From a virus: 27,217 nucleotides of DNA. A model generated the notes under the pieces. It saw only the letters and a program-made list of their open reading frames with translations. It was not told the DNA's origin and searched no databases. The position numbers and the translations under genes are program-made. Of the stretch, positions 1,146 to 21,302 are shown piece after piece; the stretch's first letter is position 1; every line of letters begins with the position of its first letter. Location of the stretch: positions 1-27,217 of IMG/VR virus record IMGVR_UViG_3300023229_000843; one strand, given 5' to 3'.

Positions 1146-2156
1146 TTAATTCCTTGACTGTTTTCTAAAACGTTTTATGACTTCTACCAAAAATGCCACA
1201 CTGTCAACGGGTGTTTCTTTGATCACACCATGCGACAGGTTCACCACATATGCCATGTCTTGCATTTGTCTCAGTATGGGCAAGGTGGCATTCATTATGG
1301 CTTCTCTGTCATAACCAAGCAGTGCTTCGGGATCTATACCCCCTTGCAGTGCCACAGTGCCTAGATGCTTGTACAAGAATTTTACAGGCACATCACCACT
1401 TAGACTCACACAATCAAGATAAGGATCACACCATGCTGAAAAGTTTTTGACTTCTCTTCCTATCAGTCTAGGAAAGCCAATGATACCTACATCTGGGTGT
1501 CTTGTTTTTATTTCTGATACAATTTGTGCTGTGGGATCAAAACAATAATCAATAATAAAGTCTTCTCCAAGATCGCCTGCCCATGAGTCAAACACTTGCA
1601 CACAATCGCAACCTGCTTCGATCTGTTTGCTGAGATGTTCCACACAAAATTTAACAAGACTTTGAATATGCTCTCGCGATGTGAAAGGATCCATGCTGGC
1701 GACATCGTTGTTGCCTTTCATATATCTATACAGTGTCCAAGGTGCTCCTACAAAGCCTATAAGACTCTTGCTGGGATCCAGTTGTTGTCTGGTTTTTCTT
1801 ATGGCTTCATACACAGGTTCACACTTCTTAAAAAACGTTTCTAAATCAGTGTCAAATATTTTAGGATCAAACAGATCCAGTTTAGGTGCTGGTGTGTAAT
1901 CTAAACCTTGTCCTAGTGCGTAAGGTATTATCAATATGTCAGAGAATATTATAGCGGCATCCATGTCAAATGCATTGATGGGTTGCATGGTGATGTCACT
2001 GGCTTTGACAGGATCCAGTGCCATGTCTAAAAATCCTTTGCTGGCTTTTTTAATTGCCATGTACTCAGGCATGTATCTTCCTGCTTGACGCATTAACCAA
2101 ATGGGATATAGATTGGGTTCTTTGTCTATGATAGTTCTTTGTAGAAGTGTTCTCAT
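1146..2156 (-). CDS. hemE: Uroporphyrinogen decarboxylase (HemE)
   Basis: This 336-aa protein is a full-length HemE, the cytosolic enzyme that removes four carboxylates from uroporphyrinogen III to give coproporphyrinogen III. Expected active-site motifs are present: MRQAGRY (Arg23, Arg27), FSDIL (Asp73), PWTLYRYM (the substrate Tyr) and NLSHGV (His309). A longer frame upstream exists (to 2189), but the start at 2156 is preferred because it aligns with the usual HemE N-terminus and forms an exact ATGA overlap with the stop of the upstream SGNH-like gene. The enzyme looks intact and of alphaproteobacterial type. A heme gene coupled between phage-type genes is unusual and suggests auxiliary metabolic cargo. 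hemA lies 17 kb away in the same window. Confidence 0.95.
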   Translation of the reverse strand: MRTLLQRTIIDKEPNLYPIWLMRQAGRYMPEYMAIKKASKGFLDMALDPVKASDITMQPINAFDMDAAIIFSDILIIPYALGQGLDYTPAPKLDLFDPKIFDTDLETFFKKCEPVYEAIRKTRQQLDPSKSLIGFVGAPWTLYRYMKGNNDVASMDPFTSREHIQSLVKFCVEHLSKQIEAGCDCVQVFDSWAGDLGEDFIIDYCFDPTAQIVSEIKTRHPDVGIIGFPRLIGREVKNFSAWCDPYLDCVSLSGDVPVKFLYKHLGTVALQGGIDPEALLGYDREAIMNATLPILRQMQDMAYVVNLSHGVIKETPVDSVAFLVEVIKRFRKQSRN

Positions 2157-2962
2157 ATGCCTTTTATCCTGTACTGATTGTTCTGCCAATTTAAATTTTC
2201 ATTGAATTCTTTGGATCCTGCATCAATGATGTCGTCTGGCATCTGTTTGATCTTTTCAATAAACTCATTTGTTTCATTGAAGTTGAAATTTTGTTGCAAC
2301 CATTTGAGATGCATTTTAGAGGTTGGGTGCATGTCAACTGTTGTTTTGGTTATTAACTTTTTAATTGTAGAATCCCATATTCTTTGTTTGTGAGCAATGC
2401 CTTGATATTTTTCTTGAGCACAAAAACCTAAGAAGTCTTGTTTCCAATTAATCTCGTCATTGAACATCTTCATGTAGCCAGGGTGGAACTGTTTAATGTC
2501 ATCACGCAGATCAACCATGCTGGTGATGTGAAATTTACAAGGCAACGATTTCAATAATGCAAGTGCCATAGTGATAAAGTTGCAAGTGTGGTACACATAA
2601 CTGGACTCACTCCAGAAGTCTTTGACCCACTCCATTTCAATTTCTTTAACCCAGATGTTGCCACCCAGTCTCCAATTAGAAATGTTGTTTGGTTCAATAC
2701 CTTGTTGATGAATGTCGTGACGATGAAAGTCTGTGAACTGCACAATAATGGTATCGTCTTTGGTTAAGTTGTTGTGAGTAACACATTCACTCAGTCGTTC
2801 CACAATGGCTCTATTGCCGTATCCACTACATGCCCAGTTCTCATAGTGATCATAAGTTGATCCCAAGATGTCTGCCCAAGTGGGCCAAAAGAAATGTGTG
2901 AATGAGCAACCAAATGTGTACAATCTTTTTGGAGCAAAATGTTCGGGTGTGTAACTTGTCAT
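2153..2962 (-). CDS. SGNH/GDSL-hydrolase-like protein
   Basis: This 269-aa protein has the layout of an SGNH hydrolase. Near the N-terminus the block FGCSFTHFFWPTWADIL carries the block I Ser, GYGNRAI supplies a Gly/Asn block, and DMHPT near residue 235 matches the C-terminal DxxH dyad. Related proteins are common and unannotated in T4-like marine phages, where esterase or carbohydrate-modifying roles are only guesses. The frame is open up to 3028, but that extension would run into the tRNA-Arg gene, so the ATG at 2960-2962 is chosen. Its stop overlaps the hemE start as ATGA, which implies co-translation with a heme enzyme. Enzymatic activity is not certain. Confidence 0.7.
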   Translation of the reverse strand: MTSYTPEHFAPKRLYTFGCSFTHFFWPTWADILGSTYDHYENWACSGYGNRAIVERLSECVTHNNLTKDDTIIVQFTDFHRHDIHQQGIEPNNISNWRLGGNIWVKEIEMEWVKDFWSESSYVYHTCNFITMALALLKSLPCKFHITSMVDLRDDIKQFHPGYMKMFNDEINWKQDFLGFCAQEKYQGIAHKQRIWDSTIKKLITKTTVDMHPTSKMHLKWLQQNFNFNETNEFIEKIKQMPDDIIDAGSKEFNENLNWQNNQYRIKGI

Positions 2963-2983
2963 ATCTATACTTACTTTAAATTT

Positions 2984-3060
2984 TGGTGCACCTACCAGGA
3001 TTCGAACCTGGGACCTCAACTTCCGCAAAGTTGCGTGGTATCCAACTCCACCATAGGTGC
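2984..3060 (-). tRNA. tRNA-Arg (anticodon GCG), CCA encoded
   Basis: The minus strand folds into a complete cloverleaf. The acceptor GCACCTA pairs with TAGGTGC, the D-stem is GTGG/CCAC, the anticodon stem CAACT/AGTTG encloses the loop TTGCGGA, and the T-arm is CCAGG-TTCGAAT-CCTGG. The discriminator is A and the CCA is encoded. The anticodon is GCG, reading CGC and CGU. Bacteria usually decode these with an A34 (inosine) tRNA-Arg, so G34 is uncommon. The gene sits inside a minus-strand gene run, between a small hypothetical gene and the SGNH-like gene. Confidence 0.93.
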
Positions 3061-3069
3061 ATAATGTTA

Positions 3070-3300
3070 TTATATGTCCTTTTTGTAATCAAATTCTTCA
3101 GCAAACTCTTCCAACAAACGAGTAAACTCCATAGCCGCTTCTTTCTTTTGTGCTTGAGTTAATTTTTTGGATTCAACTGCTTTTAACAATTTTGGGTACT
3201 CGACATTTAAATCTTTTTTAATCTCTGCCAACGATCTCTTAAACATATCAGAGTTGGGAATATTGTCGGCAAGTGCATCAGTCCAGTGTTTCTTAGTCAA
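3070..3300 (-). CDS. Hypothetical protein, TTG start
   Basis: This 76-aa soluble protein is rich in charged residues (Lys, Glu) and predicted helical, with a C-terminal acidic/aromatic stretch (EEFAEEFDYKKDI). No family is recognised. The start is TTG. It overlaps the end of the upstream tiny lipoprotein gene (TTGACTAA contains both signals), and a GGAG sequence about seven bases upstream supports it. It ends the small-gene run that begins with the VOC protein; the tRNA-Arg follows directly. Confidence 0.65.
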   Translation of the reverse strand: MTKKHWTDALADNIPNSDMFKRSLAEIKKDLNVEYPKLLKAVESKKLTQAQKKEAAMEFTRLLEEFAEEFDYKKDI

Positions 3301-3448
3301 TTGATGCTCCGTTGGATATGATTGATCTTAACAGTTTGAATGTTTTCTTTTTGTCATGTACTTTTTCACAAACGTCATCTGTGGTACACCGCATTGATGT
3401 ACAGTTGGTCAACGTCAGTAATAGAATTGCACAGAATATTATTTTCAT
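3293..3448 (-). CDS. Tiny lipoprotein (51 aa)
   Basis: The 51-aa product starts MKIIFCAILLLTLTNC, a short basic and hydrophobic signal with a plausible lipobox (LTNC), followed by a Cys-containing polar tail (SMRCTTDDVCEK). It would be lipidated and exported if the host lipoprotein pathway handles it. The ATG overlaps the stop of the SufE-like gene as TAATG, and its own stop overlaps the TTG start of the next gene. Small lipoproteins of this kind recur in the window (5357, 10146, 17868) and could act at the host envelope, for example in lysis or superinfection exclusion. That role is inference. Confidence 0.65.
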   Translation of the reverse strand: MKIIFCAILLLTLTNCTSMRCTTDDVCEKVHDKKKTFKLLRSIISNGASID

Positions 3449-3855
3449 TAAGATATTTTGTTAATCATCAAGTTGATCATTTCATAAAATCCTGTTTTTC
3501 TACTCATGGTCAACATTTCGTCCAGTTTAATTTCTTTAAAATGATCCTCAGTGATTTGTTTAGATTGTTCCAATGGTAAAGAGTTAAACACATCCAACAA
3601 GATATAGGCATACCCAGCCGCAATCATGCCATTGCTCCATGCTTTGAACTTGTTGTCCTGCACATCAACAAACAGATCAAACTGGCACTGTTTAATTTTG
3701 TTTTCAACTGTTCGTTTATCTTCTGATAAAGCATCATCATTTAACTTTGCTCCTAGAGACATCATCCAATTGTAAACTTCAAGCTCGTCTATACTTTTTA
3801 ATGTTTCGATGTGTTCTTTGTATTCTGTTAGTTTTGTTTGGATTGTATTTTCCAT
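3448..3855 (-). CDS. SufE-like Fe-S cluster assembly (sulfur acceptor) protein
   Basis: This 135-aa protein resembles SufE/CsdE, which takes persulfide sulfur from a cysteine desulfurase (SufS) for Fe-S cluster assembly. Supporting features are the family size, the pattern IDELEVYNWMMSLGAKL near residues 22-38, and the catalytic-loop-like block RTVENKIKQCQ with Cys57 where SufE has its acceptor cysteine. A helical C-terminus follows (MIAAGYAYILLDVFNSLP, matching the usual GLIALLLDVYSG region). It overlaps the VOC gene upstream by 28 bases. A phage-borne SufE-like protein would let the virus influence host Fe-S supply, in line with the heme genes and Fe(II) oxygenases here. The family call is by eye; identity to SufE looks moderate. 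Confidence 0.72.
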   Translation of the reverse strand: MENTIQTKLTEYKEHIETLKSIDELEVYNWMMSLGAKLNDDALSEDKRTVENKIKQCQFDLFVDVQDNKFKAWSNGMIAAGYAYILLDVFNSLPLEQSKQITEDHFKEIKLDEMLTMSRKTGFYEMINLMINKIS

Positions 3856-4271
3856 AACTCCTCGGGGTTCTTCATTGTTTTAATTTCCATTGCGTTGCCG
3901 TGCGGGTCTGCAAAAAACATTGTTTCTTGTTCCACTGCTTCTCCTTTAAATCTCACATAAGGTTCGTCTATGAATTTTACATTGTGTTCGATGCATCTAC
4001 GTTTAACTTCATCAAATGCTTCTTGAGTTAGATGCACACCAAAGTGCGGCACAGTGACATTGCCCATGTCCACGTTGTGTCTCTCTCCTTGTTTCTTTTG
4101 TGTGGGATCTGATCCATGTAGAGTGAGTTCATTGCCCCAAAAATTTATGTCAACCCATGCATCTGGATATTTGAATTCGCTGTTGTGTTTGGTACAACCT
4201 AAAACATTAACATAAAAGTCTACTGCTGTTTTAAGATCACCTGCTTCTATTGCCAAATGGAATCTATTCAT
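3828..4271 (-). CDS. VOC superfamily (glyoxalase/bleomycin-resistance-like) protein
   Basis: This 147-aa protein fits a single-chain VOC domain with two beta-alpha-beta-beta-beta modules. The first begins FHLAIEAGDLKTAVDFYVNVLGC and the second VPHFGVHLTQEAFDEVKRRC, ending MFFADPHGNAMEIKT. Likely metal ligands are the His in FHLA, His residues in PHFGVHL and the Glu in NAMEIK. Such proteins include glyoxalase I, dioxygenases and antibiotic-binding proteins, so the substrate cannot be named. Its ATG overlaps the stop of the small membrane protein upstream (TAATG), and its 3' end overlaps the SufE-like gene. Confidence 0.8.
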   Translation of the reverse strand: MNRFHLAIEAGDLKTAVDFYVNVLGCTKHNSEFKYPDAWVDINFWGNELTLHGSDPTQKKQGERHNVDMGNVTVPHFGVHLTQEAFDEVKRRCIEHNVKFIDEPYVRFKGEAVEQETMFFADPHGNAMEIKTMKNPEELWKIQSKQN

Positions 4272-4441
4272 TACACTAACTCCTCAACTATTCCGATGAG
4301 TTCTGCTACTGCCAACGACACAGCCAACAATATCACAGAGCCAGTGTATGCCGCCACAGCACAACCTATTATTCTAACTGCACTCTTAACAAGGCTGACA
4401 TAAAAATGTCCTTTGCCAGGATCTTTATTTGTTACTTCCAT
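4271..4441 (-). CDS. Small membrane protein (56 aa)
   Basis: The 56-aa product MEVTNKDPGKGHFYVSLVK... contains one long or two short hydrophobic segments (about residues 18-52) and ends in acidic residues. The ATG at 4439-4441 is preferred over an upstream in-frame start at 4555. It has a good AAGGAG ribosome site, while the upstream extension would run through the tRNA-like RNA. It is the first protein gene of the minus-strand transcript that starts near 4600. No family is recognised; an inner-membrane location is likely. Confidence 0.65.
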   Translation of the reverse strand: MEVTNKDPGKGHFYVSLVKSAVRIIGCAVAAYTGSVILLAVSLAVAELIGIVEELV

Positions 4442-4464
4442 TACTTGTGCTCTCCTTTTTATTT

Positions 4465-4507
4465 TTAGTTTAGTGGGGGTGCCTAGTACACCCCCTACCA
4501 GGATCGA
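4465..4507 (-). other. Two hairpins in the leader between the tRNA-like RNA and the first gene
   Basis: After the CCA end of the tRNA-like segment, the minus-strand transcript can form TACCA/TGGTA (5 bp; it uses the CCA itself) and then GGGGGTG/CACCCCC (7 bp, loop TACTAGG). The second is strong but is followed by an A-rich stretch and a ribosome site, not by a U-run. It is therefore not a classic terminator and could be a processing or translation-control element. Confidence 0.5.
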
Positions 4508-4599
4508 TGGTACGGATGGTGAGATTGGGTACTCACAAAGCCAGTCTCCCGGCACTCTACCTTTTGGAGTAGAGATGTGTTTAGTTCCACCACATTCGC
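4508..4599 (-). tRNA. Class II tRNA-like RNA (tRNA-Leu-derived), degenerate or specialised
   Basis: The 92 nt on the minus strand fold like a class II tRNA. The 5' end GCGAATGTGGTGGAACT is nearly a tRNA-Leu 5' end. The acceptor GCGAATG pairs with CATCCGT (one mismatch, one G-U), followed by A and an encoded CCA. There is an anticodon-like stem CTCTAC/GTAGAG, a short variable-arm stem GCC/GGC and a T-stem-like GTGAG/CTCAC. Oddities: the D-loop lacks the GG pair, the T-loop is TACCCAAT instead of TTCRANY, and the anticodon loop is over-long (TCCAAAAG between six pairs), so the anticodon is ambiguous (CCA or CAA). A sigma70-type promoter places its transcription start at about its first base. 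It could be a decaying tRNA-Leu or a tRNA mimic. Confidence 0.45.
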
Positions 4600-4606
4600 A
4601 TTTATT

Positions 4607-4635
4607 AATATATTACATTTTGTCATGTTTGTCAA
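4607..4635 (-). promoter_or_regulatory. Sigma70-type promoter for the tRNA-like RNA and minus-strand operon
   Basis: On the minus strand TTGACA (4635-4630) is followed after 17 bases by TATATT (4612-4607). The predicted start near 4600 coincides with the first base of the tRNA-like segment. It lies back to back with the tRNA-Gln promoter. Confidence 0.75.
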
Positions 4636-4638
4636 GTG

Positions 4639-4667
4639 TTGACATTGATACTTTTTCAGTGTATACT
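4639..4667 (+). promoter_or_regulatory. Sigma70-type promoter for tRNA-Gln
   Basis: TTGACA (4639-4644), a 17-base spacer and TATACT (4662-4667) form a near-consensus host-type promoter. The start would be about 12 bases before the tRNA-Gln. The small genes from 4807 on probably share this transcript. Confidence 0.8.
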
Positions 4668-4685
4668 GAAAACAATGTTAATTAT

Positions 4686-4759
4686 TGGCCCATGGTGAAG
4701 TGGTATCACATCTGTTTTTGGTACAGAGATCCGAGGTTCGAATCCCTGTGGGCCAGCCA
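4686..4759 (+). tRNA. tRNA-Gln (anticodon TTG), CCA encoded
   Basis: A full cloverleaf is visible. The acceptor TGGCCCA/TGGGCCA has seven pairs, the D-stem is GTGA/TCAC, the anticodon stem TCTGT/ACAGA encloses the loop TTTTGGT (anticodon TTG, reading CAA and CAG), and the T-loop is TTCGAAT. The discriminator is G, with an encoded CCA. The T-stem has one mismatch (A-C). It lies just downstream of a near-consensus sigma70-type promoter, so it is probably expressed early with host polymerase. It may serve CAA-rich phage mRNAs. Confidence 0.93.
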
Positions 4760-4806
4760 ACAAGCCAACAAACCAACTAACAAAATAAGCAAAGGTAAAT
4801 AAAAAT

Positions 4807-4950
4807 ATGTTTAATTGGATTAAAAAAATATTTAAAAACAACCACGCACTTGTTCTAAGACAAGAATGGATTGTGGGCAATCATGAGTTCCAACAACCGC
4901 ACAAGAACATAAAAAAGAAAACTAATAAGAAAACTAAAAAGGAAAGATAA
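4807..4950 (+). CDS. Small basic protein, MFNWIK paralogue 1 (47 aa)
   Basis: The 47-aa product begins MFNWIKKIFKNNHALVL and ends in a lysine-rich tail (KKKTNKKTKKER). The next gene repeats both the MFNWIK start and the KKTKKER end with an unrelated middle, so the two arose by tandem duplication or are under shared selection at both ends. The amphipathic N-terminus plus polybasic tail suggests membrane- or nucleic-acid-association. No family is recognised. An AAGGAAAG near the stop serves as ribosome site for the next gene. Confidence 0.65.
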   Translation: MFNWIKKIFKNNHALVLRQEWIVGNHEFQQPHKNIKKKTNKKTKKER

Positions 4951-4953
4951 AAT

Positions 4954-5163
4954 ATGTTTAACTGGATAAAAAACTTAATAAAAACAAACACTACTCTACT
5001 ATTAAAATCAGAATGGGAAGTAAAACCTAAACGTGCTAGATCAAAAGGCAAATACAAAGCAGACAATAAATCTACAAAAAACTACAACGAAGCATGGGTA
5101 GGTGGTAAAGCACCAAAGAAGAAGAAAAAGAAAACTAAGAAGAAAACTAAAAAAGAAAGATAA
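4954..5163 (+). CDS. Small basic protein, MFNWIK paralogue 2 (69 aa)
   Basis: The 69-aa product shares its first six residues and its last dozen (KKKTKKKTKKER-type tail) with the gene directly upstream, but has a longer, basic middle (KPKRARSKGKYKADNKS). It is strongly basic throughout, which would suit nucleic-acid binding or internal virion packing; this is inference. The start is three bases after the previous stop, within the repeated junction AAAGATAAAATATG, and the same junction precedes the next gene. Confidence 0.7.
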   Translation: MFNWIKNLIKTNTTLLLKSEWEVKPKRARSKGKYKADNKSTKNYNEAWVGGKAPKKKKKKTKKKTKKER

Positions 5164-5166
5164 AAT

Positions 5167-5346
5167 ATGCCAAAACACATGGGAATTAATAGAGCCTACG
5201 TTGCAGGAGACATTGAAAAATCACCTGCAGAAAAACAAGTAGAACTGGATGCCAAAATGAAAGAATTTTTAGCAAAAGGTGGTAAAGTAGAAAAAGTTAA
5301 GGCACACAAACCTACCAAACAACAACAGAAAGATTGGACAATATAA
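5167..5346 (+). CDS. Small protein with MKEFLAKGGKVEKV motif (59 aa)
   Basis: The 59-aa product MPKHMGINRAYVAG... carries MKEFLAKGGKVEKV at residues 31-44. The same 14-residue block occurs in the 95-aa protein encoded on the other strand at 15373-15660. Short F-L-x-K-G-G-K-x-x-K blocks are, from memory, common in small phage proteins, but their function is unknown. The gene follows the two MFNWIK genes with the same short junction and so belongs to the same transcript. Confidence 0.65.
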   Translation: MPKHMGINRAYVAGDIEKSPAEKQVELDAKMKEFLAKGGKVEKVKAHKPTKQQQKDWTI

Positions 5347-5356
5347 AAAGTATAAA

Positions 5357-5569
5357 ATGAAGATGATTATTCTTGTATCCATTTTAATTTTGTTGGCAGG
5401 CTGTGCTGTAAGGGATTGCAAACTAGAGCCGCAAATAACTGTTCAAACAAAATCCAAAGAAGCTCGATCCAATTCAGACAGCGAGAGCAAAGACAACGAT
5501 CCCAAATCCATTTTACAATCAGTAAAGGACAACGCACAACCTAGCGGACAACTGGCGTGTAAATTTTAA
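5357..5569 (+). CDS. Small lipoprotein (70 aa)
   Basis: The 70-aa product begins MKMIILVSILILLAGC, a signal peptide with a clear lipobox (LLAGC), followed by a polar, Ser/Asp/Lys-rich tail with two more cysteines. It should be lipidated and anchored in the envelope. The last base of its stop codon is the first base of the next ATG (TAATG), so it is coupled to the DUF3307-like membrane protein gene. Function is unknown; a role at the host envelope is likely. Confidence 0.7.
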   Translation: MKMIILVSILILLAGCAVRDCKLEPQITVQTKSKEARSNSDSESKDNDPKSILQSVKDNAQPSGQLACKF

Positions 5570-5931
5570 TGAGTGAAACAGTTTTAATATTTTTCCTACT
5601 AGCCATCAAGCATGGTGTTTGTGATTTGGCACTGCAGGCTTTGTACTGTCGTCCCAGCCATAAACACATTTACCTAGCACCCAAAGCCATGCTACATTCA
5701 TTACATCATGGATTGGGCACTTGGGTTGTGTTGATGATGTTTACCAACTATCTCACAGCAATCAGTTTAGCCATACTGGATCTGTTGTTGCACCACCACA
5801 TTGATTTTGTAAAAAGTTCTATTGTGAAAAAGAATGATTGGACTTTGGCAGGCAAGTGGTATTGGGTAGCAACCACTGTGGATCAAAATTTACATTTCTC
5901 GGGCTACTTGTTGATTATTTCTTTATTGTAA
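5569..5931 (+). CDS. DUF3307-like integral membrane protein
   Basis: This 120-aa protein has about four hydrophobic segments and the histidine pattern of DUF3307-type membrane proteins. Visible blocks are KHGVCDLALQ in the first helix, MLHSLHHGLGTW in the second, LHHHIDFVKS after the third and TVDQNLHFSGYL in the last. Proteins of this family occur in bacteria and in phages and have no established function. The conserved His/Asp residues inside membrane helices hint at metal or ligand binding. It is the last gene of the plus-strand run and is followed by a strong bidirectional terminator. Confidence 0.65.
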   Translation: MSETVLIFFLLAIKHGVCDLALQALYCRPSHKHIYLAPKAMLHSLHHGLGTWVVLMMFTNYLTAISLAILDLLLHHHIDFVKSSIVKKNDWTLAGKWYWVATTVDQNLHFSGYLLIISLL

Positions 5932-5948
5932 TTTCTTAATTTATCGTG

Positions 5949-5990
5949 AAAATAGGTCCAATGCGATTAGCAGTGAACCTATTTTATTTT
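5949..5990. terminator. Bidirectional rho-independent terminator
   Basis: AAAATAGGT (5949-5957) and ACCTATTTT (5977-5985) form a perfect 9-bp stem with a 19-base loop, with T-rich sequence on the plus side and an A-run at the stem base serving the minus side. It lies between the convergent DUF3307-like gene and the cold-shock gene and would end both transcripts. Confidence 0.75.
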
Positions 5991-5992
5991 TA

Positions 5993-11023: not shown

Positions 11024-12928
11024 TTATTTCTTATCTTCTTCTTTGGGATCAACTTCTTTAAAGTCGGCATCCACAATATTTTCTTCTGTGCTTTCGCCTT
11101 GCTGTTCCGACTGTGCTTGTTCTTCTTGTGCTTGTTTGTACACTGCTTCGCCCAACTTCATACTGGCTTCTGTGAGTGTTTTGATTGCTTCTTGAATCTT
11201 ACTCACATCATCTGTTTTGGATGCGTCGATTAAAGTTGCTTTGGCATCTTCAATTGCTTTCTTTTCCTCTTCAGATATCTTGTCGCCATGCTCTTTGAGT
11301 TGCTTGTCGATTTGATGTGTCAGTGTTTCAGATTGGTTCTTTGTTTCTACCAACTCTCTTTTCTTCTTGTCTTCTTCTTTGTTGGCTTCTGCATCTTTGA
11401 CCATCTTGTCAATGTCTTCATCTGACAATCCACCCGATGCTTGAATAGTGATCTTCTGTTCTTTGCCAGTGCCTTTGTCTTTGGCACTCACACTCAAGAT
11501 ACCGTTTGCATCTATATCAAATGTAACTTCGATCTGTGGTAAACCTCTTGGAGCAGGTGCAATACCTTCAAGGTTAAAGTTACCCAGCAATTTGTTGTCC
11601 ACTGCCATATCTCTTTCACCCTGTGTAACTCTGATAGTCACTGCCGCTTGATTGTCTTCTGCTGTGGAGAACACTTGACTTTTCTTTGTGGGAATAGTTG
11701 TGTTCTTTTCTATTACTTTGGTTGTGACTCCGCCCAATGTTTCAATACCCAGTGATAAAGGTGTAACATCTAACAACAATACATCTTTAACATCACCTTG
11801 CAGTACACCACCTTGTATAGCGGCACCCAATGCCACCACTTCATCTGGATTAACTCCTTTGTGAGGTTCTTTACCAAAAAACTCTTTGACTGTGTCGAAC
11901 ACTTTGGGCATTCTGGTCATACCACCAACCAACACCACTTCGCTGATGTCCTTGGTCGACAGTCCGGCATCTTTTAATGCCTGTTTGCAAGGAGAAAGTG
12001 TTCGTGCTATAAGATCACCAACCAAACTTTCCAATGTTGCTCTGGTCATCTTTATGTTGATGTGTTTGGGTCCTGTTTTATCTGCTGTGATAAAAGGTAG
12101 ATTGATATCTGTTTGAGTTGTGCTTGACAATTCTATTTTGGCTTTCTCAGCCGCCTCTCTCACACGTTGTACAGCCAACTTGTCGTTGCCCAAGTCTATA
12201 CCTTGATCTTTTTTAAATTCACTGATGATGTAATTTGTGATTGTGGCATCAAAGTCTTCACCACCCAGTGTTGTGTCACCGTTTGTGGATTTAACTTCAA
12301 ACACTCCGTCACCCAGTTCTAATATAGAAACATCAAATGTACCTCCACCTAGATCGTACACAGCAATCGTGCCTGACTTTTTCTTGTCCAGACCATATGC
12401 CAACGCCGCCGCAGTTGGTTCATTAATAATTCTTTCCACTTCCAGTCCGGCAATCTTACCAGCGTCTTTGGTAGCCTTACGTTGACTGTCATTGAAATAT
12501 GCAGGCACAGTGATCACTGCCTTGGTTACTTCTTCGCCTAGATATTTCTCTGCTGTCTCTTTCATCTTACGAAGCACTGATGCAGAAATCTCTGATGGTG
12601 CATAGTTTTTGCCATTGGCTTTCACCCAAGCATCACCGTTGTCTGCTTTCACAATTTCGTAAGGAAGTGTTTTGATATCTTTTTGCACAGCATCTCCTTC
12701 GAATGTTCTACCAATCAAACGTTTTGCCGCAAATATTGTGTTGCTTGAATTGGACACTGCTTGTCTTTTTGCAGGCATACCAACCAATGTTTCGGAGTCT
12801 GTGAATGCTACCACACTTGGAGTGGTTCTTGCTCCTTCTGTATTTTCAATAACTTTTGCGTCCTTGCCTTCCATTAAAGCAACACAAGAGTTTGTTGTAC
12901 CCAAGTCTATTCCTATTATTTTACTCAT
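11024..12928 (-). CDS. dnaK: Molecular chaperone DnaK (Hsp70)
   Basis: This 634-aa protein is a full-length Hsp70. The ATPase domain starts [14 protein letters not shown] and contains [16 protein letters not shown] and [11 protein letters not shown]. The linker [19 protein letters not shown] leads into the substrate-binding domain, and the C-terminal lid ends in an acidic tail ([15 protein letters not shown]). It binds exposed hydrophobic segments in an ATP cycle with DnaJ and GrpE, neither of which is present in the window, so host co-chaperones would be needed. The sequence looks alphaproteobacterial and intact. The gene has its own sigma70-type promoter and a strong AAGGAG site. A complete dnaK among phage-type genes is unusual. 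Confidence 0.97.
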
Positions 12929-13012: not shown

Positions 13013-14668
13013 CTAATCGTAGAAATCCCCAGATTTCATGTTAGTATTTTCCACAGGATCCCAATCTTTCTTAACAGGCTCGGGTTCATCAAACACTGAT
13101 GCTCCTGTTGTGATTAATAATCCAGCAATACTTGAAGCATTTATCAGTGCTGTTTTTGTCACTTTGGTAGGATCGATAATACCCAATTCAATCATGTCAC
13201 CAAAATTACCTGTTCCAGCATCATAACCAAAGTTACCTTTACCTTTCAGTATTTCATTTATAATCACATCTGGCGATCCGCCTGCGTTGGCAATAATCTG
13301 TCTCACAGGGGATTCAATTGCTTTCAACACAATCTGTATGCCTGCTGTTTGATCTTCGTTGTCTCCTTGCAGATTTTCAATCTTTTGTTTGGCTCTTAAG
13401 AAAGCAACTCCACCTCCTGGCACAATACCATCTTCAACTGCGGCTTTGGTAGCATTTAAGGCATCTTCAATTCTGTCTTTTTTCTCCTGCACTTCAACTT
13501 CGGTTGCGGCACCCACTCTAATCACTGCGACGCCGCCTGTAAGTTTGGCTAATCTTTCTTCTAATTTTCTTTTGTCATCGCCGCCCTCACTCATTTCAAT
13601 CTGTTTTTTGAGCTCTGCAACTCTGCTGTCTATTTTAGATTTAAATCCCTTGCCACCTATGATTGTGGTTGTGTTTTTGTCTACAACTACTCTTGATGCT
13701 TGTCCAAGGTCTTCCAGTTTGGCTTTTTCTAAAGTTAATCCTGTGTCGTCTGATATCACTTCACCGCCGGTCAGTGTTGCCATATCTTGCAACATTGCTT
13801 TTCTGCTGTTGCCATACCCTGGAGAGTGAACTGCCGCACATCTAATTGTGCCTTTGGCATTGTTCATCACTAATGTGGCTAGTGCTTCTCCTTCAGCATC
13901 TTCGCACACAAATAAAAACGGTTTGTTCTTTTTGGCAAGTTCTTCTAATAGAGGAACAATTTCTTGAACAGTTCTAACGTGCTTACCTGTTAATATAATG
14001 TAGACATCTTCCAGTTCCACAAGTTGTTTTGCTGGATCGTTGATGAAGTACGGACTCATATAGCCTCTATCAAATTGCAATCCTTCTACAACTTCCAGTT
14101 CATTCTTCATGGTCTTGCCTTTTTCAACAGTGATAACACCTTCTTTACCAACTTTTTCCATAGCCTCAGCAATCATAGATCCTATGTCTTTGTCTGAGTT
14201 GGCAGATATAGTTCCAACTTGTTCTATTTCGTTTTGTGTTTTACATTGTTTTGATATTTTAGAGAGTTGTTCAACCACTGCATCAGTGGCTTTGTCCATT
14301 CCTCTTTTTAAATCCATTGGGTTCATTCCGGCAGTGATATACTTAATACCTTCATTAACAATTGCTTGAGCTAACACTGTGGCAGTGGTTGTGCCATCGC
14401 CTGCTTCTTCGTTGGTTCTGCTGGCAACTTCCTTAACCATCTGAGCACCCATGTTGGCTAGATCATCTTTTAATAAAATTTCTTTTGCTACTGTGACACC
14501 ATCTTTGGTTATTGCTGGAGCACCCCATGTTCTTTGTAGAACAACATTTCTACCTTTGGGTCCTAGAGTTATTCTCACAGCATTTGCTAGAATATCTACT
14601 CCCTGAATTAGTTTGTTTCTGCTACGAGATCCGAATTCTACTTTTTTTGTTTTACCATTAATTGCCAT
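13013..14668 (-). CDS. groL: Chaperonin GroEL (Hsp60) with atypical acidic C-terminus
   Basis: This 551-aa protein is a complete GroEL. ATPase residues are present: [12 protein letters not shown] (Asp near 52), [13 protein letters not shown] (Asp near 87) and [16 protein letters not shown] (the catalytic Asp). The apical domain keeps the substrate/GroES-binding blocks [11 protein letters not shown] and [10 protein letters not shown]. The hinge and the C-terminal equatorial domain are intact. Oddity: the usual disordered Gly-Gly-Met tail is replaced by an acidic end with proline and aromatic residues ([18 protein letters not shown]...). No groES gene adjoins it, unlike the bacterial groESL operon, so it must use host GroES or one encoded elsewhere. 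A sigma70-type promoter and an AAAGGAG site precede it. Confidence 0.97.
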
Positions 14669-16835: not shown

Positions 16836-16980
16836 GTCTTTTGTAAACTGTTAGTAGATGATTTAAAACTCTTTCCCAATATGATTTAAACCAAGGATCG
16901 TGTGCTGTAAGCATAGAGTTTCTAGCATTACGAATCAGTCTTTCTTTACTGGGTTCGAACATTTTTGCTAATCTATTCAT
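16828..16980 (-). CDS. Small protein, phage FEPSKERL...DPWFKSYWERV type (50 aa)
   Basis: The 50-aa product MNRLAKMFEPSKERLIRNAR... is basic and amphipathic, with an aromatic C-terminal half (DPWFKSYWERVLNHLL). I have an impression of similar short proteins in marine T4-like phages, with no known role. Its ATG overlaps the stop of the upstream gene (TAATG), and its stop lies inside the start of the downstream gene (ATGACTAA). Confidence 0.65.
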   Translation of the reverse strand: MNRLAKMFEPSKERLIRNARNSMLTAHDPWFKSYWERVLNHLLTVYKRHD

Positions 16981-17180
16981 TATTTGACCTCTTGTAATTT
17001 CTGAATCAAAAGATTTTTGATTGCATCTCTGAAAGCATCGTCAGTCACTGACGAACTCAACGGTATCATTACTTTAGGATCTGGAAATACTTTGTCTTGA
17101 AGTGTTTTTACAGATACTGCAAGGTAAATCAACAGAGCCAAAATACTTAGATTGATCACCAAGTTTATTTTATTTGTCAT
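16980..17180 (-). CDS. Small membrane-anchored protein (66 aa)
   Basis: The 66-aa product has an N-terminal membrane helix (NLVINLSILALLIYLAVSV), then a soluble tail predicted to be helical (DDAFRDAIKNLLIQKLQEVK). The tail could face either side of the membrane. It overlaps the upstream gene by 11 bases and the downstream one by TAATG. No family is recognised. Confidence 0.65.
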   Translation of the reverse strand: MTNKINLVINLSILALLIYLAVSVKTLQDKVFPDPKVMIPLSSSVTDDAFRDAIKNLLIQKLQEVK

Positions 17181-17349
17181 TTTCCACCTTTTCTATTTCA
17201 CCTTTGTCGGTTTCTTTTAGATAACCCATTGAAATCATCATGTCCACTGCTCTTGCACTGGCTAACATTGTGCCTTGTTCTTTGCCTAGTTTAAAACTGA
17301 TATAGATTATTGCACCAATACTCAATCCAAATATTAAAATTTCATTCAT
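17170..17349 (-). CDS. Small membrane protein (59 aa)
   Basis: The 59-aa product starts MNEILIFGLSIGAIIYISFKLGKEQG: one membrane helix, then a short helical, acidic tail (YLKETDKGEIEKVENDK). The frame is open upstream to 17415, but the ATG at 17347-17349 makes an exact ATGA overlap with the stop of the upstream 46-aa gene, so it is preferred. Confidence 0.65.
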   Translation of the reverse strand: MNEILIFGLSIGAIIYISFKLGKEQGTMLASARAVDMMISMGYLKETDKGEIEKVENDK

Positions 17350-17486
17350 GACATTATCCATGGTCCGAACAGGATCAGTATCAACATAATGGGCACCACA
17401 ATGGTCATGGGCCAAAAGTTTAACAACTCAATCCAATCCTTTTTGGTTAATTTGTATTCTTTTTGTATTCTTTTCTTTTTCATCAT
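17346..17486 (-). CDS. Small membrane protein (46 aa)
   Basis: The 46-aa product MMKKKRIQKEYKLTKKDWIE... has a strongly basic N-terminus and a C-terminal hydrophobic helix (MTIVVPIMLILILFGPWIM), a tail-anchored layout. Its first ATG overlaps the stop of the upstream 43-aa gene as ATGA, and its own stop overlaps the next start in the same way. Confidence 0.65.
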   Translation of the reverse strand: MMKKKRIQKEYKLTKKDWIELLNFWPMTIVVPIMLILILFGPWIMS

Positions 17487-17614
17487 ATAAGTTTCACCAA
17501 TATAACTACCTGAAGACATAGTATCGCAACGGGAATGATAGTTCTAATCAACTCCATTGTGTGGTTGTATTCGTCTAGTTTTCTTTCTAACTTGTTTCTT
17601 TTTTTCTTAATCAT
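17483..17614 (-). CDS. Small membrane protein (43 aa)
   Basis: The 43-aa product MIKKKRNKLERKLDEYNHTM... is also basic at the start, with a C-terminal hydrophobic helix (IIPVAILCLQVVILVKLI), the same tail-anchored design as its downstream neighbour. The two may be diverged relatives or a paired complex. It overlaps both neighbours by ATGA. Confidence 0.65.
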   Translation of the reverse strand: MIKKKRNKLERKLDEYNHTMELIRTIIPVAILCLQVVILVKLI

Positions 17615-17784
17615 ACTATTCTAGTACCTTGAGTTAATTTTTTGATAGTATCTTCTATTTCATACAGTTGTTCGTCCAATTCAATAATCTTTTTTGTATT
17701 GGTTTCAAACTCTAATTGGTCTTTTACTGTTATTTTTTGACGTTCTAAATCAGCAACTTGTTCTTTGTTTGATTCTGTAAACAT
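17611..17784 (-). CDS. Small coiled-coil protein (57 aa)
   Basis: The 57-aa product MFTESNKEQVADLERQKITV... is almost entirely charged helix with heptad-like spacing (LEFETNTKKIIELDEQLYEIEDTIKKL), so a coiled coil is likely. It is the first gene of the microprotein chain. It has a perfect AAGGAG ribosome site and a near-perfect sigma70-type promoter, so it should be strongly expressed. Confidence 0.7.
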   Translation of the reverse strand: MFTESNKEQVADLERQKITVKDQLEFETNTKKIIELDEQLYEIEDTIKKLTQGTRIV

Positions 17785-17805
17785 TTTTTCTCCTTAAGTT
17801 ATCTT

Positions 17806-17835
17806 ATTATAACACATTTTGGTACCACCTGTCAA
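17806..17835 (-). promoter_or_regulatory. Sigma70-type promoter of the microprotein operon
   Basis: TTGACA (17835-17830), an 18-base spacer and TATAAT (17811-17806) on the minus strand: both boxes are exact consensus. The start is about 15 bases before the ribosome site of the 57-aa gene. Confidence 0.85.
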
Positions 17836-17867
17836 CTGCACAGAAACCGCAGTTTCATTGACTTTTT

Positions 17868-18098
17868 CTACCAAGGCAGTTTCACAGTGTCCGAGTTGTT
17901 GTAATAATCAGTTTCTTCTACAAATTTTGACCAACTGTATGGTTCGTTTTGAAAAAATTTGATCTGTTCTCCACACACAAAACAAACATCGTGTGCTCTG
18001 TAACCAGGAGCCTTGGCACCTTTTTGCCATTCTCCCATTGTGGCTGAACAGCCTTGAAGCAACGTCAGTAAAATAATTGTTGACAATATTCTATTCAT
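17868..18098 (-). CDS. Small lipoprotein (76 aa)
   Basis: The 76-aa product starts MNRILSTIILLTLLQGCSAT with a clear lipobox (LLQGC). The tail contains a CxxC (VCFVCGEQ) and aromatic residues, perhaps a small metal or disulfide site, and ends DTVKLPW. It should sit in the envelope. The predicted transcription start from its own promoter falls at or next to the ATG, so the mRNA may be leaderless. Confidence 0.7.
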   Translation of the reverse strand: MNRILSTIILLTLLQGCSATMGEWQKGAKAPGYRAHDVCFVCGEQIKFFQNEPYSWSKFVEETDYYNNSDTVKLPW

Positions 18099-18103
18099 AC
18101 TTT

Positions 18104-18132
18104 ATATTACAATAAAATAACCGAAATGTCAA
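18104..18132 (-). promoter_or_regulatory. Sigma70-type promoter of the 76-aa lipoprotein
   Basis: TTGACA (18132-18127), a 17-base spacer and TAATAT (18109-18104) on the minus strand. The expected start is about base 18097, next to the ATG at 18098. Confidence 0.7.
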
Positions 18133-18163
18133 TGGTTATAAAGTGCTAGTTTTATTGGCTTTT

Positions 18164-18171
18164 CATAAATA
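18164..18171 (+). promoter_or_regulatory. T4-like late promoter for speD
   Basis: CATAAATA ends ten bases before the speD ATG at 18182. No ribosome site lies between. Confidence 0.65.
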
Positions 18172-18181
18172 TAGATTGAAT

Positions 18182-18640
18182 ATGACAAAACTATTAGAAC
18201 ACAAACACATTATAATAAGAGCAGAAGCAAACAATCCTCCTAAGGATGAAACATTTGCTATCAATTCACTTGCTAATTTAATCGAACGCATTGATATGAA
18301 ACTGTTGATGGGTCCGTTTGCCAAGTATGTTGAAATGGAAGGCAACCGAGGATTAACTGTTGCCGCAATTATAGAAACCAGTCACATTGTATTACATAGT
18401 TGGGACGAAACAACGCCTGCTATCATACAACTTGATGTGTACACTTGTGGAGCATTTGATCCCAACACAGTGTTTGAATGGTTACAACAGTTTGATATAG
18501 GTAAAGTAGATTGGAAATACATCGATAGAGAACACGGTTTACAAGAACTAGATTACACCCCTCCAGCAAGACCCTTGCCAACACACAATTACACAACCAC
18601 AGAAATTGTTGAAGCAATGGACAGCATACTTTCTAGATAA
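18182..18640 (+). CDS. speD: S-adenosylmethionine decarboxylase proenzyme (SpeD), phage type
   Basis: This 152-aa protein matches the short, self-cleaving SpeD found in T4-like marine phages. Characteristic blocks are KHIIIRAEANNPP, LMGPFAKYVEMEGNRGLT and IIETSHIVLHSWDE with the pyruvoyl-forming Ser67 (after Thr, where bacterial enzymes often have Glu) and proton-donor His72. Then comes LDVYTCGAFDP with the catalytic Cys89, and later DREHGLQELDY. The enzyme makes decarboxylated SAM for spermidine synthesis; polyamines help compact DNA. An earlier in-frame ATG (18143) exists, but it lies upstream of the late promoter, so the start at 18182 is chosen. Confidence 0.93.
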   Translation: MTKLLEHKHIIIRAEANNPPKDETFAINSLANLIERIDMKLLMGPFAKYVEMEGNRGLTVAAIIETSHIVLHSWDETTPAIIQLDVYTCGAFDPNTVFEWLQQFDIGKVDWKYIDREHGLQELDYTPPARPLPTHNYTTTEIVEAMDSILSR

Positions 18641-18643
18641 ATA
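18636..18643 (+). promoter_or_regulatory. T4-like late promoter overlapping the speD stop
   Basis: GATAAATA includes the TAA stop of speD. The next ATG (18674) has a perfect GGAGGTGA ribosome site, so this transcript has a leader of about 25 bases, unlike most late genes here. Confidence 0.6.
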
Positions 18644-18673
18644 TGTTTATCACACAACCTAATGGAGGTGAGC

Positions 18674-18883
18674 ATGAAGTTACGATCCATTCAGATAAAT
18701 CTAGCACTAGGTCAACAGATTCTAGTTGGTCACAAGGAAGAAAAAGCAACCATCACAAAAATAGAACATTTTGAAAAGTCTGGAGATGTGGTTATAAAGA
18801 CCACTAGAGGCACTAGGAAGGCACTCACTTTTAAGATGTTACCAGAGGTTCAGGCGGGCAATTCAGCAGACAAATATCGCTAA
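18674..18883 (+). CDS. Hypothetical protein (69 aa)
   Basis: The 69-aa product MKLRSIQINLALGQQILVGH... is likely a small beta-barrel-like protein: ITKIEHFEKSGDVVIKTTRGTRKALTF, basic overall. A perfect GGAGGTGA ribosome site five bases before the ATG decides this start over an in-frame ATG at 18662. Nucleic-acid binding is possible but not shown. No family is recognised. Confidence 0.62.
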   Translation: MKLRSIQINLALGQQILVGHKEEKATITKIEHFEKSGDVVIKTTRGTRKALTFKMLPEVQAGNSADKYR

Positions 18884-18886
18884 ATA
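18879..18886 (+). promoter_or_regulatory. T4-like late promoter for the gene at 18892
   Basis: GCTAAATA overlaps the stop of the 69-aa gene and ends exactly five bases before the ATG. Confidence 0.7.
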
Positions 18887-18891
18887 TTTTT

Positions 18892-19128
18892 ATGAAAGTA
18901 CAAGAAGTAATAATATCCGAAGCAGGGCCTGCCAGTAAAGCATTGTGTAGAAGCAAAAAACCTGATCATGCACTGGGTGCCAGTCAGTTGGCAAGTTGTA
19001 AAAGTCAAGGTTACAGAAAACGTTCAGGAAAAAAATCTTACAAGATTGGCAAGAAGAGAGTTTATGTTTCTGGAAAGAAGATTAAAGGCGAGCCATACGG
19101 CGGACCATTACCATTGTATAGTAAATGA
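18892..19128 (+). CDS. Small basic putative internal capsid protein (78 aa)
   Basis: The 78-aa product starts MKVQEVIISEA, which fits a T4-type capsid-targeting peptide with a predicted cut after I-S-E (residue 10). The rest is strongly basic (CKSQGYRKRSGKKSYKIGKKRVYVSGKKIKG), ending GGPLPLYSK, as expected for a DNA-packing internal protein like T4 IPI-III. It is read from a late promoter with a five-base gap. Its stop overlaps the yqgE start as ATGA. Confidence 0.65.
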   Translation: MKVQEVIISEAGPASKALCRSKKPDHALGASQLASCKSQGYRKRSGKKSYKIGKKRVYVSGKKIKGEPYGGPLPLYSK

Positions 19129-19679
19129 GAACATCGATAACAGGATCTAAATGGCAAAATAAGATACTAATCTCTACTCCCAAAATGGGGCAGGATAGTA
19201 CATTTGCAAGAAGTGTAGTATTTGTATATGAAGAGTCTCCGCAACATGTGGCAGGGCTTGTTATTAATAAACCCACAAGAACAAAATTAAAAAAGATATT
19301 AGAATCTAAAGGATTTGCAACAGTTGACATGAAGGACCTAGTTTACCAAGGTGGACCAGTAAACCAAGAAAGTATTTTATTACTACACACAGACGAATGG
19401 AGTTGTAAGAACACTCTTAAATTAGGTAACGGATTCAGTTTAACAAGTGATGCTCAGATGTTAAAAAAATTACATGAAGAAGATTCACCAGACGAATGGA
19501 GATGTTTTAGTGGATTAAGTGTGTGGTCACCAGGACAATTAGAAGGAGAAATCAACAGCAAGTGTTGGTTGACTGCAGAACCATCAGAAGAATTGCTTTT
19601 AAACACTCCTATTGAACAGATTTATGAAAAAGCAATTAAAATCTGCTCACAACAAACATTCAACAAATACATAGATTAA
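19125..19679 (+). CDS. yqgE: YqgE/AlgH family protein
   Basis: This 184-aa protein matches the YqgE/AlgH (UPF0301) family in length and order of blocks. It starts KILISTPKMGQDSTFARSVVFVYEES (family text: L-I-A-x-P-x-M-x-D-p-x-F-x-x-s-V-v-y-i-c-e-H). Then come GLVINKPT, VYQGGPVNQESILLLH, FSGLSVWSPGQLEGEI and the terminal WLTAEPSEELLLNTPIEQIYEKA. The bacterial family has no settled function. Its coupling (ATGA) to a predicted capsid-interior gene, 25 bases before hemA, is unusual. Confidence 0.85.
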   Translation: MRTSITGSKWQNKILISTPKMGQDSTFARSVVFVYEESPQHVAGLVINKPTRTKLKKILESKGFATVDMKDLVYQGGPVNQESILLLHTDEWSCKNTLKLGNGFSLTSDAQMLKKLHEEDSPDEWRCFSGLSVWSPGQLEGEINSKCWLTAEPSEELLLNTPIEQIYEKAIKICSQQTFNKYID

Positions 19680-19691
19680 ACTGAGTAGTTA

Positions 19692-19699
19692 ACTAAATA
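19692..19699 (+). promoter_or_regulatory. T4-like late promoter for hemA
   Basis: ACTAAATA ends exactly five bases before the hemA ATG at 19705. There is no ribosome site, so a leaderless mRNA is predicted. Confidence 0.7.
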
Positions 19700-19704
19700 C
19701 TGAT

Positions 19705-20883
19705 ATGCTTTCAGTTAATCCTTTTCAGGACATCATCAACAATCTCAAAGAGTCTGGAAATTACAGAGTTTTCAATGACATTCTTCGTGAGAGAGGTGAA
19801 TACCCAAATGCTATATGGTATGGCAAATACAATATTAAAAATATTGTGAATTGGTGTTCAAATGATTACCTAGGTATGGGTCAACATAAGGTGGTTCTAG
19901 ATGCTATGCATACTGCATTGGATCAAACAGGTGCAGGCTCTGGTGGGACTAGGAACATAGGTGGAACCAGCCACTACCATGTAGCACTTGAAATTGAATT
20001 GGCTAAACTGCACAGCACTGAGTCGGCATTACTTTACAGTTCTGCCTACGTTGCAAACGAATGGAGTCTAATTGCATTAAAACGCATCATTCCTGATATT
20101 GTGTTTATTAGTGACAGCAAGAATCATGCTTCATTAATACAAGGTATCAGACATAGTGGTGCTGAGAAACATATTTTCAAACACAATGATCTCGAGCAAT
20201 TGGAATCTATACTCAAAACCTGTAAAGGCACACCGTGTATTGTCTTTGAATCTGTGTATAGCATGGATGGGTTCATGAGTAAAATTACAGAAATCTGTGA
20301 CCTAGCAGAAAAGTATGGTGCTATCACATATCTTGATGAGGTTCACGCAGTCGGCTTGTATGGAAATAAAGGCGGAGGTGTTACTCAAAAATTAGATCTA
20401 CAAGATCGAATAGATATTTTGAATGGTACACTTGGTAAAGCCTTTGGCACACAGGGAGGTTACATCGTTGGTAAGTCTATTGTTTTAGACGCAATACGTT
20501 CTGTTGCCTCGGGCTTTATCTTTACCACGTCAATGAGTCCTGTGATTTGTGCAGGTGCATTGGCAAGTGTCAAATACGTTTCAGACAACAACGACTTAAG
20601 AACAAAACATCAAGAAAGAGCAAACAGACTTAAAGAAATTTTTCGACAGAAAAACATTCCAATGATTGAAAACGAAACTCACATAGTTCCGGTTCATGTT
20701 GGAGAGGCTAAGAAGTGTAAAGCAATCAGCGATACACTGATAAATGAATATGGAATATATTGTCAAGCAATAAATTATCCAACAGTTGAAGTAGGCACAG
20801 AGCGACTACGTTTTGCACCGACACCGTTCCATACAGATGCAATGATGCATAATTTAAGAGACGCTCTAGAAAAGGTACTATAA
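19705..20883 (+). CDS. hemA: 5-aminolevulinate synthase (ALAS, C4 pathway)
   Basis: This 392-aa protein is a complete PLP-dependent ALAS, which condenses glycine and succinyl-CoA to 5-aminolevulinate, the first step of heme synthesis in Alphaproteobacteria. Motifs: [12 protein letters not shown] at 50-61, [17 protein letters not shown] at 77-92 (substrate site), [12 protein letters not shown] at 209-220 (Asp211 pairs with the PLP nitrogen), [16 protein letters not shown] with the PLP lysine Lys245, and FIFTTSMSP. The TLGKAFG and DEVHAVG forms favour ALAS over its relatives KBL and BioF. No Cys-Pro heme-regulatory motif is obvious, so feedback by heme may be absent. It has a late promoter and an overlapping DUF454 gene (TAATG). 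Confidence 0.95.
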
Positions 20884-21302
20884 TGAATAAGATAAAAAAA
20901 TATTTGTATCAAGCATTGGGATTTCTATGTGTGGGTATTGCCTACATAGGTTTTGTTACTCCAGGAATACCATTCTCGATATTTTTAGTGGTTGCCGCTT
21001 GGGCATTTGCAAAGAGTTCACCTAAGATGGAGGCTTGGTTGTATAACCATCCATGGTTTGGTAAATTCTTAACCAACTGGACAAAGAAAAGAGTATTTCC
21101 TATAAAAGGAAAATACGCAATGATATTAGTAATGAGTTCCACTTTAGCATTTACTTGGTATTTCACAGGTAATATGAAAGCAGTATTATGGTCAGGCATA
21201 TCCATGGCACTAGTGGCTGTTTGGGCATGGCGTTATCCTTCCACTGTAGAAGAACACAATGCCAGAGTGAAAGCAGGCAAGAAGATTGGTTGGCTAAAAT
21301 AA
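20883..21302 (+). CDS. DUF454 (YbaN-like) inner-membrane protein
   Basis: This 139-aa protein resembles YbaN/DUF454. The first helix GFLCVGIAYIGFVTPGIPFSIFLVVAAWAFAKSSPKMEAWL and the block NHPWFGKFLTNWTKKRVFPIKGK (family text: hpwfG-x-x-i-x-x-w-x-x-x-r-x-i-x-x-k-x-K) are clear, followed by two more membrane helices. The function of the family is not established. Its ATG overlaps the hemA stop (TAATG), so ALAS and this membrane protein are made together. That makes a role connected with heme or its precursors worth considering. Confidence 0.82.
   Translation: MNKIKKYLYQALGFLCVGIAYIGFVTPGIPFSIFLVVAAWAFAKSSPKMEAWLYNHPWFGKFLTNWTKKRVFPIKGKYAMILVMSSTLAFTWYFTGNMKAVLWSGISMALVAVWAWRYPSTVEEHNARVKAGKKIGWLK

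Follow-up and report, generated by a model that had tools for sequence, protein, structure and literature searches.

Uroporphyrinogen decarboxylase and 5-aminolevulinate synthase genes on a viral fragment suggest that related T4-like phages help to run heme production in infected cells

That phages carry genes of the heme pathway is already known. A viral gene for 5-aminolevulinate synthase (ALAS), valaS, complements an E. coli 5-aminolevulinate auxotroph, as stated in the main text of the report describing it (Wegner et al., 2024, PMC11480375), and a single sentence of a 2020 paper names coproporphyrinogen oxidase and porphobilinogen deaminase for the 'deep ecotype' of pelagimyophages (PMC7029224). 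Passages of other papers report viral alaS (PMC11549919, PMC13390420), viral ahbD (PMC9301287, PMC13390420) or, for lagoon viruses, a 'heme biosynthesis' gene category in which the enzyme goes unnamed (PMC13184970); all four assign heme-synthesis genes to viruses, and HemE is named in none of these passages. Here we analyze a stretch of 27,217 bases, a fragment held as an IMG/VR virus record and referred to in full as the window, in which a gene for uroporphyrinogen decarboxylase (hemE, minus strand) and a gene for ALAS (hemA/alaS, plus strand) are both open and complete (Table 1). We consider it probable that the two are maintained auxiliary metabolic genes, with which phages supplement the host route to protoheme. 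An earlier note on this DNA, made from the sequence alone, had counted neither enzyme among the phage heme cargo known to it; this does not hold for ALAS, which is published and active according to the main text cited above, and stands for HemE within the searchable literature.

The window ALAS resembles valaS, as far as the main text of PMC11480375 describes it, in its family (TIGR01821), its pyridoxal phosphate (PLP) lysine, its phage context and its place in a phage clade apart from bacteria. In that text, however, valaS occurs alone or with the heme breakdown genes hemO and pcyA/X, whereas the window ALAS shares a contig with a synthesis gene, hemE; the words 'decarboxylase', 'coproporphyrinogen', 'ferrochelatase' and 'hydroxymethylbilane' are absent from it, and 'porphobilinogen' appears only in a reference. 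The pelagimyophages of PMC7029224 are, as here, T4-like phages with heme-pathway cargo, and their pair of enzymes recurs as HemC together with HemF on six contigs of the present set (G040, G056, G097, G101, G105 and G106), but the main text of that paper lacks 'uroporphyrinogen' and 'aminolevulin', whereas the window carries hemE and ALAS. Because text searches confuse hemE with heme, the literature was checked by enzyme name. A phage hemE was not found in the searchable literature, a search that left subscription papers, preprints, figures and supplements outside its reach; no searchable paper joined uroporphyrinogen decarboxylase to auxiliary metabolic genes, and those listed as pairing it with phage or viral genomes appear to concern other subjects. 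Porphobilinogen deaminase with phage auxiliary metabolism led only to PMC7029224, coproporphyrinogen with viral heme biosynthesis led to no paper, and the heme terms sought were absent from PMC7674155 and PMC7892664; a last search showed no work on phage heme synthesis among the papers listed. Likewise, beyond the pair in PMC7029224, the searchable papers gave no case of several named heme-synthesis enzymes sharing one phage contig. Within that literature, HemE in phages and the combination of three to five pathway steps look new.

The window ALAS reaches 571.6 bits on TIGR01821, whose cut-off is 338.55 (the bioF model gives 312 bits and kbl-type models 307), and its PLP lysine is residue 245, within GTLGKAFG, a position occupied by lysine in all 37 aligned rows. 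For hemE, a longer open reading frame (ORF; 1146-2189, minus strand) begins at a TTG at 2189 and encodes 347 residues. The ATG at 2156, however, is most likely the start, because it reads ATGA and overlaps the stop codon (TGA) of the gene before it, and because relatives L083, L086, L087 and L088 begin HemE at the equivalent methionine. The protein matches PF01208 with 247 bits (cut-off 23.9, E-value 3.7e-73) and keeps all six residues matching human R37, R41, D86, Y164, S219 and H339, the residues of the uroporphyrinogen decarboxylase (UroD) pocket. Across 30 phage HemE proteins the six are kept in every case save one histidine in G105 (L218:9968-11092), where LGSG replaces LGHG; this is the sole histidine loss among the 30, and the G105 enzyme may be altered or failing. 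The AlphaFold model of the window HemE has a predicted local distance difference test score (pLDDT) of 91.5, and its 24 best matches in the PDB are all UroD (E 3e-24 to 3e-19), led by the human enzyme (TM-score 0.88, E 3e-24), the next non-UroD match being a methyltransferase at 6e-13. The window protein is thus like cellular HemE of the PF01208 family in predicted fold, pocket residues and length, and differs from it in belonging to a long-branched phage clade and in its identity to the cellular proteins found, at most about 35% over most of its length, rising to as much as 42% in one short segment. The complete genes with intact active sites, and the ATGA coupling of hemE to the gene upstream, are therefore as the earlier note had them. 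The identity it gave to that upstream gene, SGNH-like, is by eye only, from the look of the sequence and from ORFs in related contigs, and the gene has no match in Pfam or PHROG.

Both genes appear to be kept by selection in viral lineages. The ratio of nonsynonymous to synonymous substitution rates (dN/dS) is 0.04-0.10 for ALAS in four pairs, three of which include the window, and 0.07-0.17 for HemE in seven pairs of relatives; by this measure the homologs of both proteins are under purifying selection. In a tree of 30 phage and 21 cellular HemE sequences, the window protein is one of 18 phage sequences that form a clade (99/100), itself grouped with alphaproteobacterial HemE (91/100), 11 other phage sequences form a second, long-branched clade, and the HemE of G097 (L287; 4728-5756) pairs with that of Sulfitobacter (100/97), nested among Rhodobacterales, and is probably a separate, younger acquisition. 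When the phage label is traced on this tree, the starred branches require that it was gained or lost at least twice, and the best tree takes three such changes, which a single gain followed by two losses could also supply; how many acquisitions there were is thus a provisional figure, since long branches are flagged and SAR11 HemE is missing. In the ALAS tree, a 100/100 branch separates 32 phage rows from five alphaproteobacterial rows, none of them SAR11. The trees lack SAR11 and most other Alphaproteobacteria because a scan of genome contigs gave only distant HemE. Under this thin bacterial sampling, both proteins fall in phage clades and not inside one bacterial species.

The linkage of the two genes is independent of any one assembly, because hemE lies on contig G016 (window positions 1-19494, 99.985% identity) and ALAS on contig G001 (6431-27217, 99.976%), and these two, whose record names bear different dataset numbers, overlap by 13 kb and jointly span all of the window at 99.98%. 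Contig G002, a relative, aligns to positions 8818-27217 in eight blocks, six of them longer than 300 bases and 89.6-98.9% identical, and stops short of the hemE end. In searches with P-TIM40 queries, G002 carries T4-type nrdA and nrdB, and a 730-residue piece of its NrdA shares 72-73% identity with the NrdA proteins of cyanophages and of two pelagiphages, HTVC008M and Mosig. G002 also has weak matches to tail proteins, namely a tape measure protein (E 1.5e-4) and a tail spike (E 2.7e-7). The related contig G085 (156,383 bases) has ALAS (559 bits), HemC (232 bits against a cut-off of 164) and HemE (240 bits, below its cut-off) along with a series of T4-type genes, among them gp13 to gp23, nrdAB, gp44 and gp45, and gp16 to gp23 are found on seven HemE-bearing contigs (G021, G022, G024, G026, G083, G085 and G088). 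Through these markers in its relatives, the window is best read as a piece of a T4-like tailed phage genome, and its heme genes as cargo of a lineage tied to such phages, in line with the earlier note. Gene order is also partly shared: G105 and the window have in common HemE followed by two 2-oxoglutarate (2OG) oxygenase genes, and also DnaK, SpeD, an AlgH-like gene and ALAS, which follow one another alike on both. An ordinary bacterial chromosome around the genes, or nesting of both proteins in one bacterial species, was looked for and not found. As to the host, an alphaproteobacterium is our guess.

How far the pathway extends among related viruses was examined in 161 records or loci, the window included, all picked for encoding ALAS or HemE. 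A single-sequence scan with ALAS returned 478 viral stretches encoding relatives, of which the best 80, all at least 70% identical, were kept (the remainder may include paralogs); a single-sequence HemE scan gave 12 viral loci, and an alignment of seven phage HemE gave 153 relatives, the best 80 of which were kept. First 47 contigs, then all kept loci, were compared by tblastn with phage ALAS, HemB, HemC, HemE, HemF and HemH. Many entries are fragments or have no more than 10 kb of flanking sequence, near copies occur among them, and phage genes were checked on part of them only; the counts are therefore neither complete nor independent. ALAS and HemE occur together in 13 of the 161, at least two steps in 43, and at least three in 21 by tblastn (22 counting the HemF of G004, which overlaps HemB), while HemE is the only step found in 42. 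Pfam counts above cut-off, which come from differing record sets, are 10/50 for HemF, 7/50 for HemC, 3/50 for HemB and 1/50 for HemH, the HemB of G004 and G101 lying below the NCBIfam cut-off; HemE was found by Pfam on none of 15 ALAS records in one set and on two of 50 in another (15 of the 80 fell outside both). Single-sequence scans with HemF, HemC and HemH returned only their own contigs.

The longest set is on G105 (43,627 bases), with five steps: ALAS, HemC, HemE, HemF (332.5 bits, above its cut-off of 297) and, seen by tblastn only, a homolog of ferrochelatase (32% identity over 327 residues); this contig has no P-TIM40 marker match. G106 has nrdAB, ALAS, HemE, HemF and HemC inside 12 kb; G101 has HemF, HemC, HemE and HemB consecutively, with T4-type nrdAB elsewhere; and on G040, which also has ALAS and nrdAB, HemC, HemF and HemE adjoin a gene for a NifU-domain protein. 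G097 joins HemE, HemF and HemC to T4-type gp43, gp46, gp47, gp55 and uvsWY, and G057 carries ALAS, HemE and a ferrochelatase that scores 208 bits (cut-off 124.6). A gene for a TonB-dependent receptor (L164:6181-7959) lies near the ferrochelatase gene of G057. Taken collectively, these viruses encode every step sought except HemD and protoporphyrinogen oxidase, for which HemJ only was sought. We lean, by a small degree, to the view that T4-like aquatic phages collectively own the protoheme route (ALAS, HemB, HemC, HemE, HemF and HemH, with up to five steps on single contigs), that HemE was probably acquired more than once, and that the heme of an infected cell would be made largely by viral enzymes. 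Cultured carriers were also sought in a phage collection, but the matches listed for HemE, ALAS, HemC, HemF and clade-II HemE are all less than 40% identical and, by record names and labels, read as host DNA, bioF/kbl paralogs or transduced loci; many of those records are unannotated.

Several observations weigh against reading hemE and ALAS as maintained phage genes that supplement protoheme synthesis. The first concerns the HemE assignment. On the NCBIfam equivalog TIGR01464, the window HemE reaches 266.5 bits, under the cut-off of 302.95, as do two further phage HemE that were checked; the protein is assigned to the PF01208 family, outside the equivalog. Together with weak matches to MtbA-type methyltransferases, this could point to a UroD-fold enzyme of other function, for example a methyltransferase, which we hold to be very unlikely given the conservation of the pocket, the much closer structural match to UroD and the HemC or HemF genes beside HemE in relatives. 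Moreover, the sole dN/dS pair with the window's own HemE is saturated (dS 3.0). Nor can a loss of heme feedback be claimed for the phage ALAS: the column of the heme-regulatory histidine (His342 in R. capsulatus) holds lysine in the window, and all five bacterial ALAS compared are likewise without histidine.

A second group of observations concerns the origin and completeness of the gene set. Genes for terminase, portal and capsid (T4-type gp17, gp20 and gp23) were found with P-TIM40 queries on none of the window, G001, G016 and G002, all of them fragments, so that of the structural genes whose presence the earlier note had left to be checked, those on relatives such as G085 came to light and none on the window. 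As the window also has DnaK, GroEL, SufE and two tRNA genes, the contig might be bacterial or chimeric, or the heme genes chance passengers; but two contigs agree over its full length, hemE-bearing relatives carry the T4-type structural genes, and the homologs form phage clades under purifying selection, and bacterial contamination, or any such account, seems to us exceedingly improbable. ALAS is the only heme step found in 76 of the 161 records or loci, HemD was found by Pfam on none of 50 records and HemJ on none of 45, HemG and HemY being outside this search; consequently, no phage here has the full pathway. An ALAS acting with neither a phage HemD nor a phage HemJ could overfill the pathway with intermediates or drain glycine and succinyl-CoA, weakening the host instead of yielding usable heme. 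We find this improbable, for HemE, HemF and HemH would move intermediates toward heme, and a gene set acting as a poison would have no use for such later steps.

Finally, heme oxygenase is present on four of 45 records (G006, G009, G013 and G099), all with ALAS, and heme is possibly a precursor there. Cassettes of three genes, valaS, hemO and pcyA/X, appear in the main text of PMC11480375, and a similar role in the present phages would make heme a feed for heme oxygenase and bilin reductases, for pigments or for iron release. Heme oxygenase is, however, found on none of the window, G002, G085, G105 and G106, most records being fragments, and only one of the 45 records (G099) pairs it with HemE; as a general explanation the precursor role is unlikely, though less so than the others. 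That the phages supplement the host route to protoheme is the account we prefer.

The earlier note had also proposed a TAAATA late promoter for ALAS. Across the window as a whole TAAATA is not enriched (24 observed, 26.8 expected), but it stands at exactly -11 before six of 43 listed gene starts, and no offset exceeded two in 2000 circular shifts; two further genes have it at -14, and in G094 the -11 spacing occurs seven times among 73 ORFs. Because this spacing recurs beyond the shift expectation, the proposal gains positional support, and the motif suggests that ALAS is expressed late, from transcripts that would be nearly leaderless. TAAATA is absent from the 40 bases before hemE.

Table 1. 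Features of the window, with strand and the evidence for each.
Feature	Position	Strand	Evidence or remark
2OG-Fe(II) oxygenase	40..591	-	PF13640, PHROG 61
2OG-Fe(II) oxygenase-like protein, downstream of hemE	588..1136	-	PHROG 274, E 1.4e-33
hemE, uroporphyrinogen decarboxylase	1146..2156	-	336 aa from ATG at 2156; PF01208, pocket residues, predicted fold
Upstream gene, ATGA-coupled to hemE	2153..3028	-	SGNH-like by eye only
tRNA-Arg	2984..3060	-	
SufE-like Fe-S assembly protein	3448..3855	-	PF02657
tRNA-Gln	4686..4759	+	
DnaK, full-length	11024..12928	-	NF001413, 1035.8 bits, cut-off 648
GroEL, full-length	13013..14668	-	TIGR02348, 755.4 bits, cut-off 582.1
S-adenosylmethionine decarboxylase (SpeD)	18143..18640	+	PF02675
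AlgH/YqgE-like protein, upstream of ALAS	19125..19679	+	PF02622
TAAATA, candidate T4-type late promoter of ALAS	19694..19699	+	starts 11 bases before ALAS ATG
hemA/alaS, 5-aminolevulinate synthase, 392 aa	19705..20883	+	TIGR01821; phage clade 100/100
DUF454 membrane protein	20883..21302	+	PF04304; adjoins ALAS in several relatives
2OG-Fe(II) oxygenase	21306..21884	+	PF13640, PHROG 274
Protein common to T4-like cyanophages (P-TIM40 gp182 family)	23796..24929	+	PHROG 455
TAAATA at -11, six plus-strand gene starts	10135, 10511, 18881, 19694, 21896, 26867	+	candidate late promoters

Among the neighboring genes, the DUF454 gene begins in the last base of ALAS, and the full-length DnaK and GroEL genes adjoin; relatives of the former (71-79%) are found on G004, G006, G094 and G105, and the window GroEL was unmatched among 13 contigs compared. 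The 2OG oxygenases match PHROG families 61, 81 and 274, the last of which bears the label DNA endonuclease V, a label that looks wrong; the proteins of 588-1136 and 21306-21884 both match this family. Genes for Fe-S proteins are seen near heme genes, SufE in the window and the NifU-domain protein (L166:15440-15811) directly upstream of HemE in G040, and ferredoxin-like ORFs were noted by eye in G105 and G085. Of 53 phage records matching the protein of 23796-24929, 51 are named for Synechococcus, Prochlorococcus or cyanophage, and 11 of 12 records matching SpeD in the phage collection are Pelagibacter phages (45-50% identity in the eight listed), a likeness that is a weak hint of a SAR11-like host.

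ALAS catalyzes step 1, the controlled entry of the alphaproteobacterial route, and HemE step 5, the decarboxylation of uroporphyrinogen III, which commits the intermediate to protoheme and away from siroheme and B12. Possibly, then, the phage pushes at the start of the pathway, making 5-aminolevulinate from a gene outside host regulation, and pulls at the branch point, the host supplying the steps between. Heme supply would thereby be kept or raised during infection as host gene expression falls, and the heme would likely be used in respiratory cytochromes and other heme enzymes, or in some relatives may feed heme oxygenase. Since related phages carry overlapping subsets of ALAS, HemB, HemC, HemE, HemF and HemH, keeping or raising the heme supply is their most likely shared purpose, and the additional steps present in relatives lend weight to the suggestion of the earlier note that the pair could raise heme. 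What the analysis shows is gene content, catalytic residues, the predicted HemE fold, purifying selection among homologs, phage clades and co-occurrence; activity of the window HemE, expression, flux and a benefit to the phage are inferred.

Phage tetrapyrrole genes have so far been read mainly as genes for heme breakdown and pigments, plus a lone ALAS. With several synthesis steps on single phage contigs, the question shifts from the boosting of one enzyme to whether viruses control a whole cofactor pathway. The phage HemE enzymes, with only about a third of their residues identical to those of the cellular proteins found, are a further gain. A prediction that follows is that, in some hosts, heme is what limits phage production. 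In any event, the gene sets described here suggest that related viruses take part in running the heme production of infected cells.

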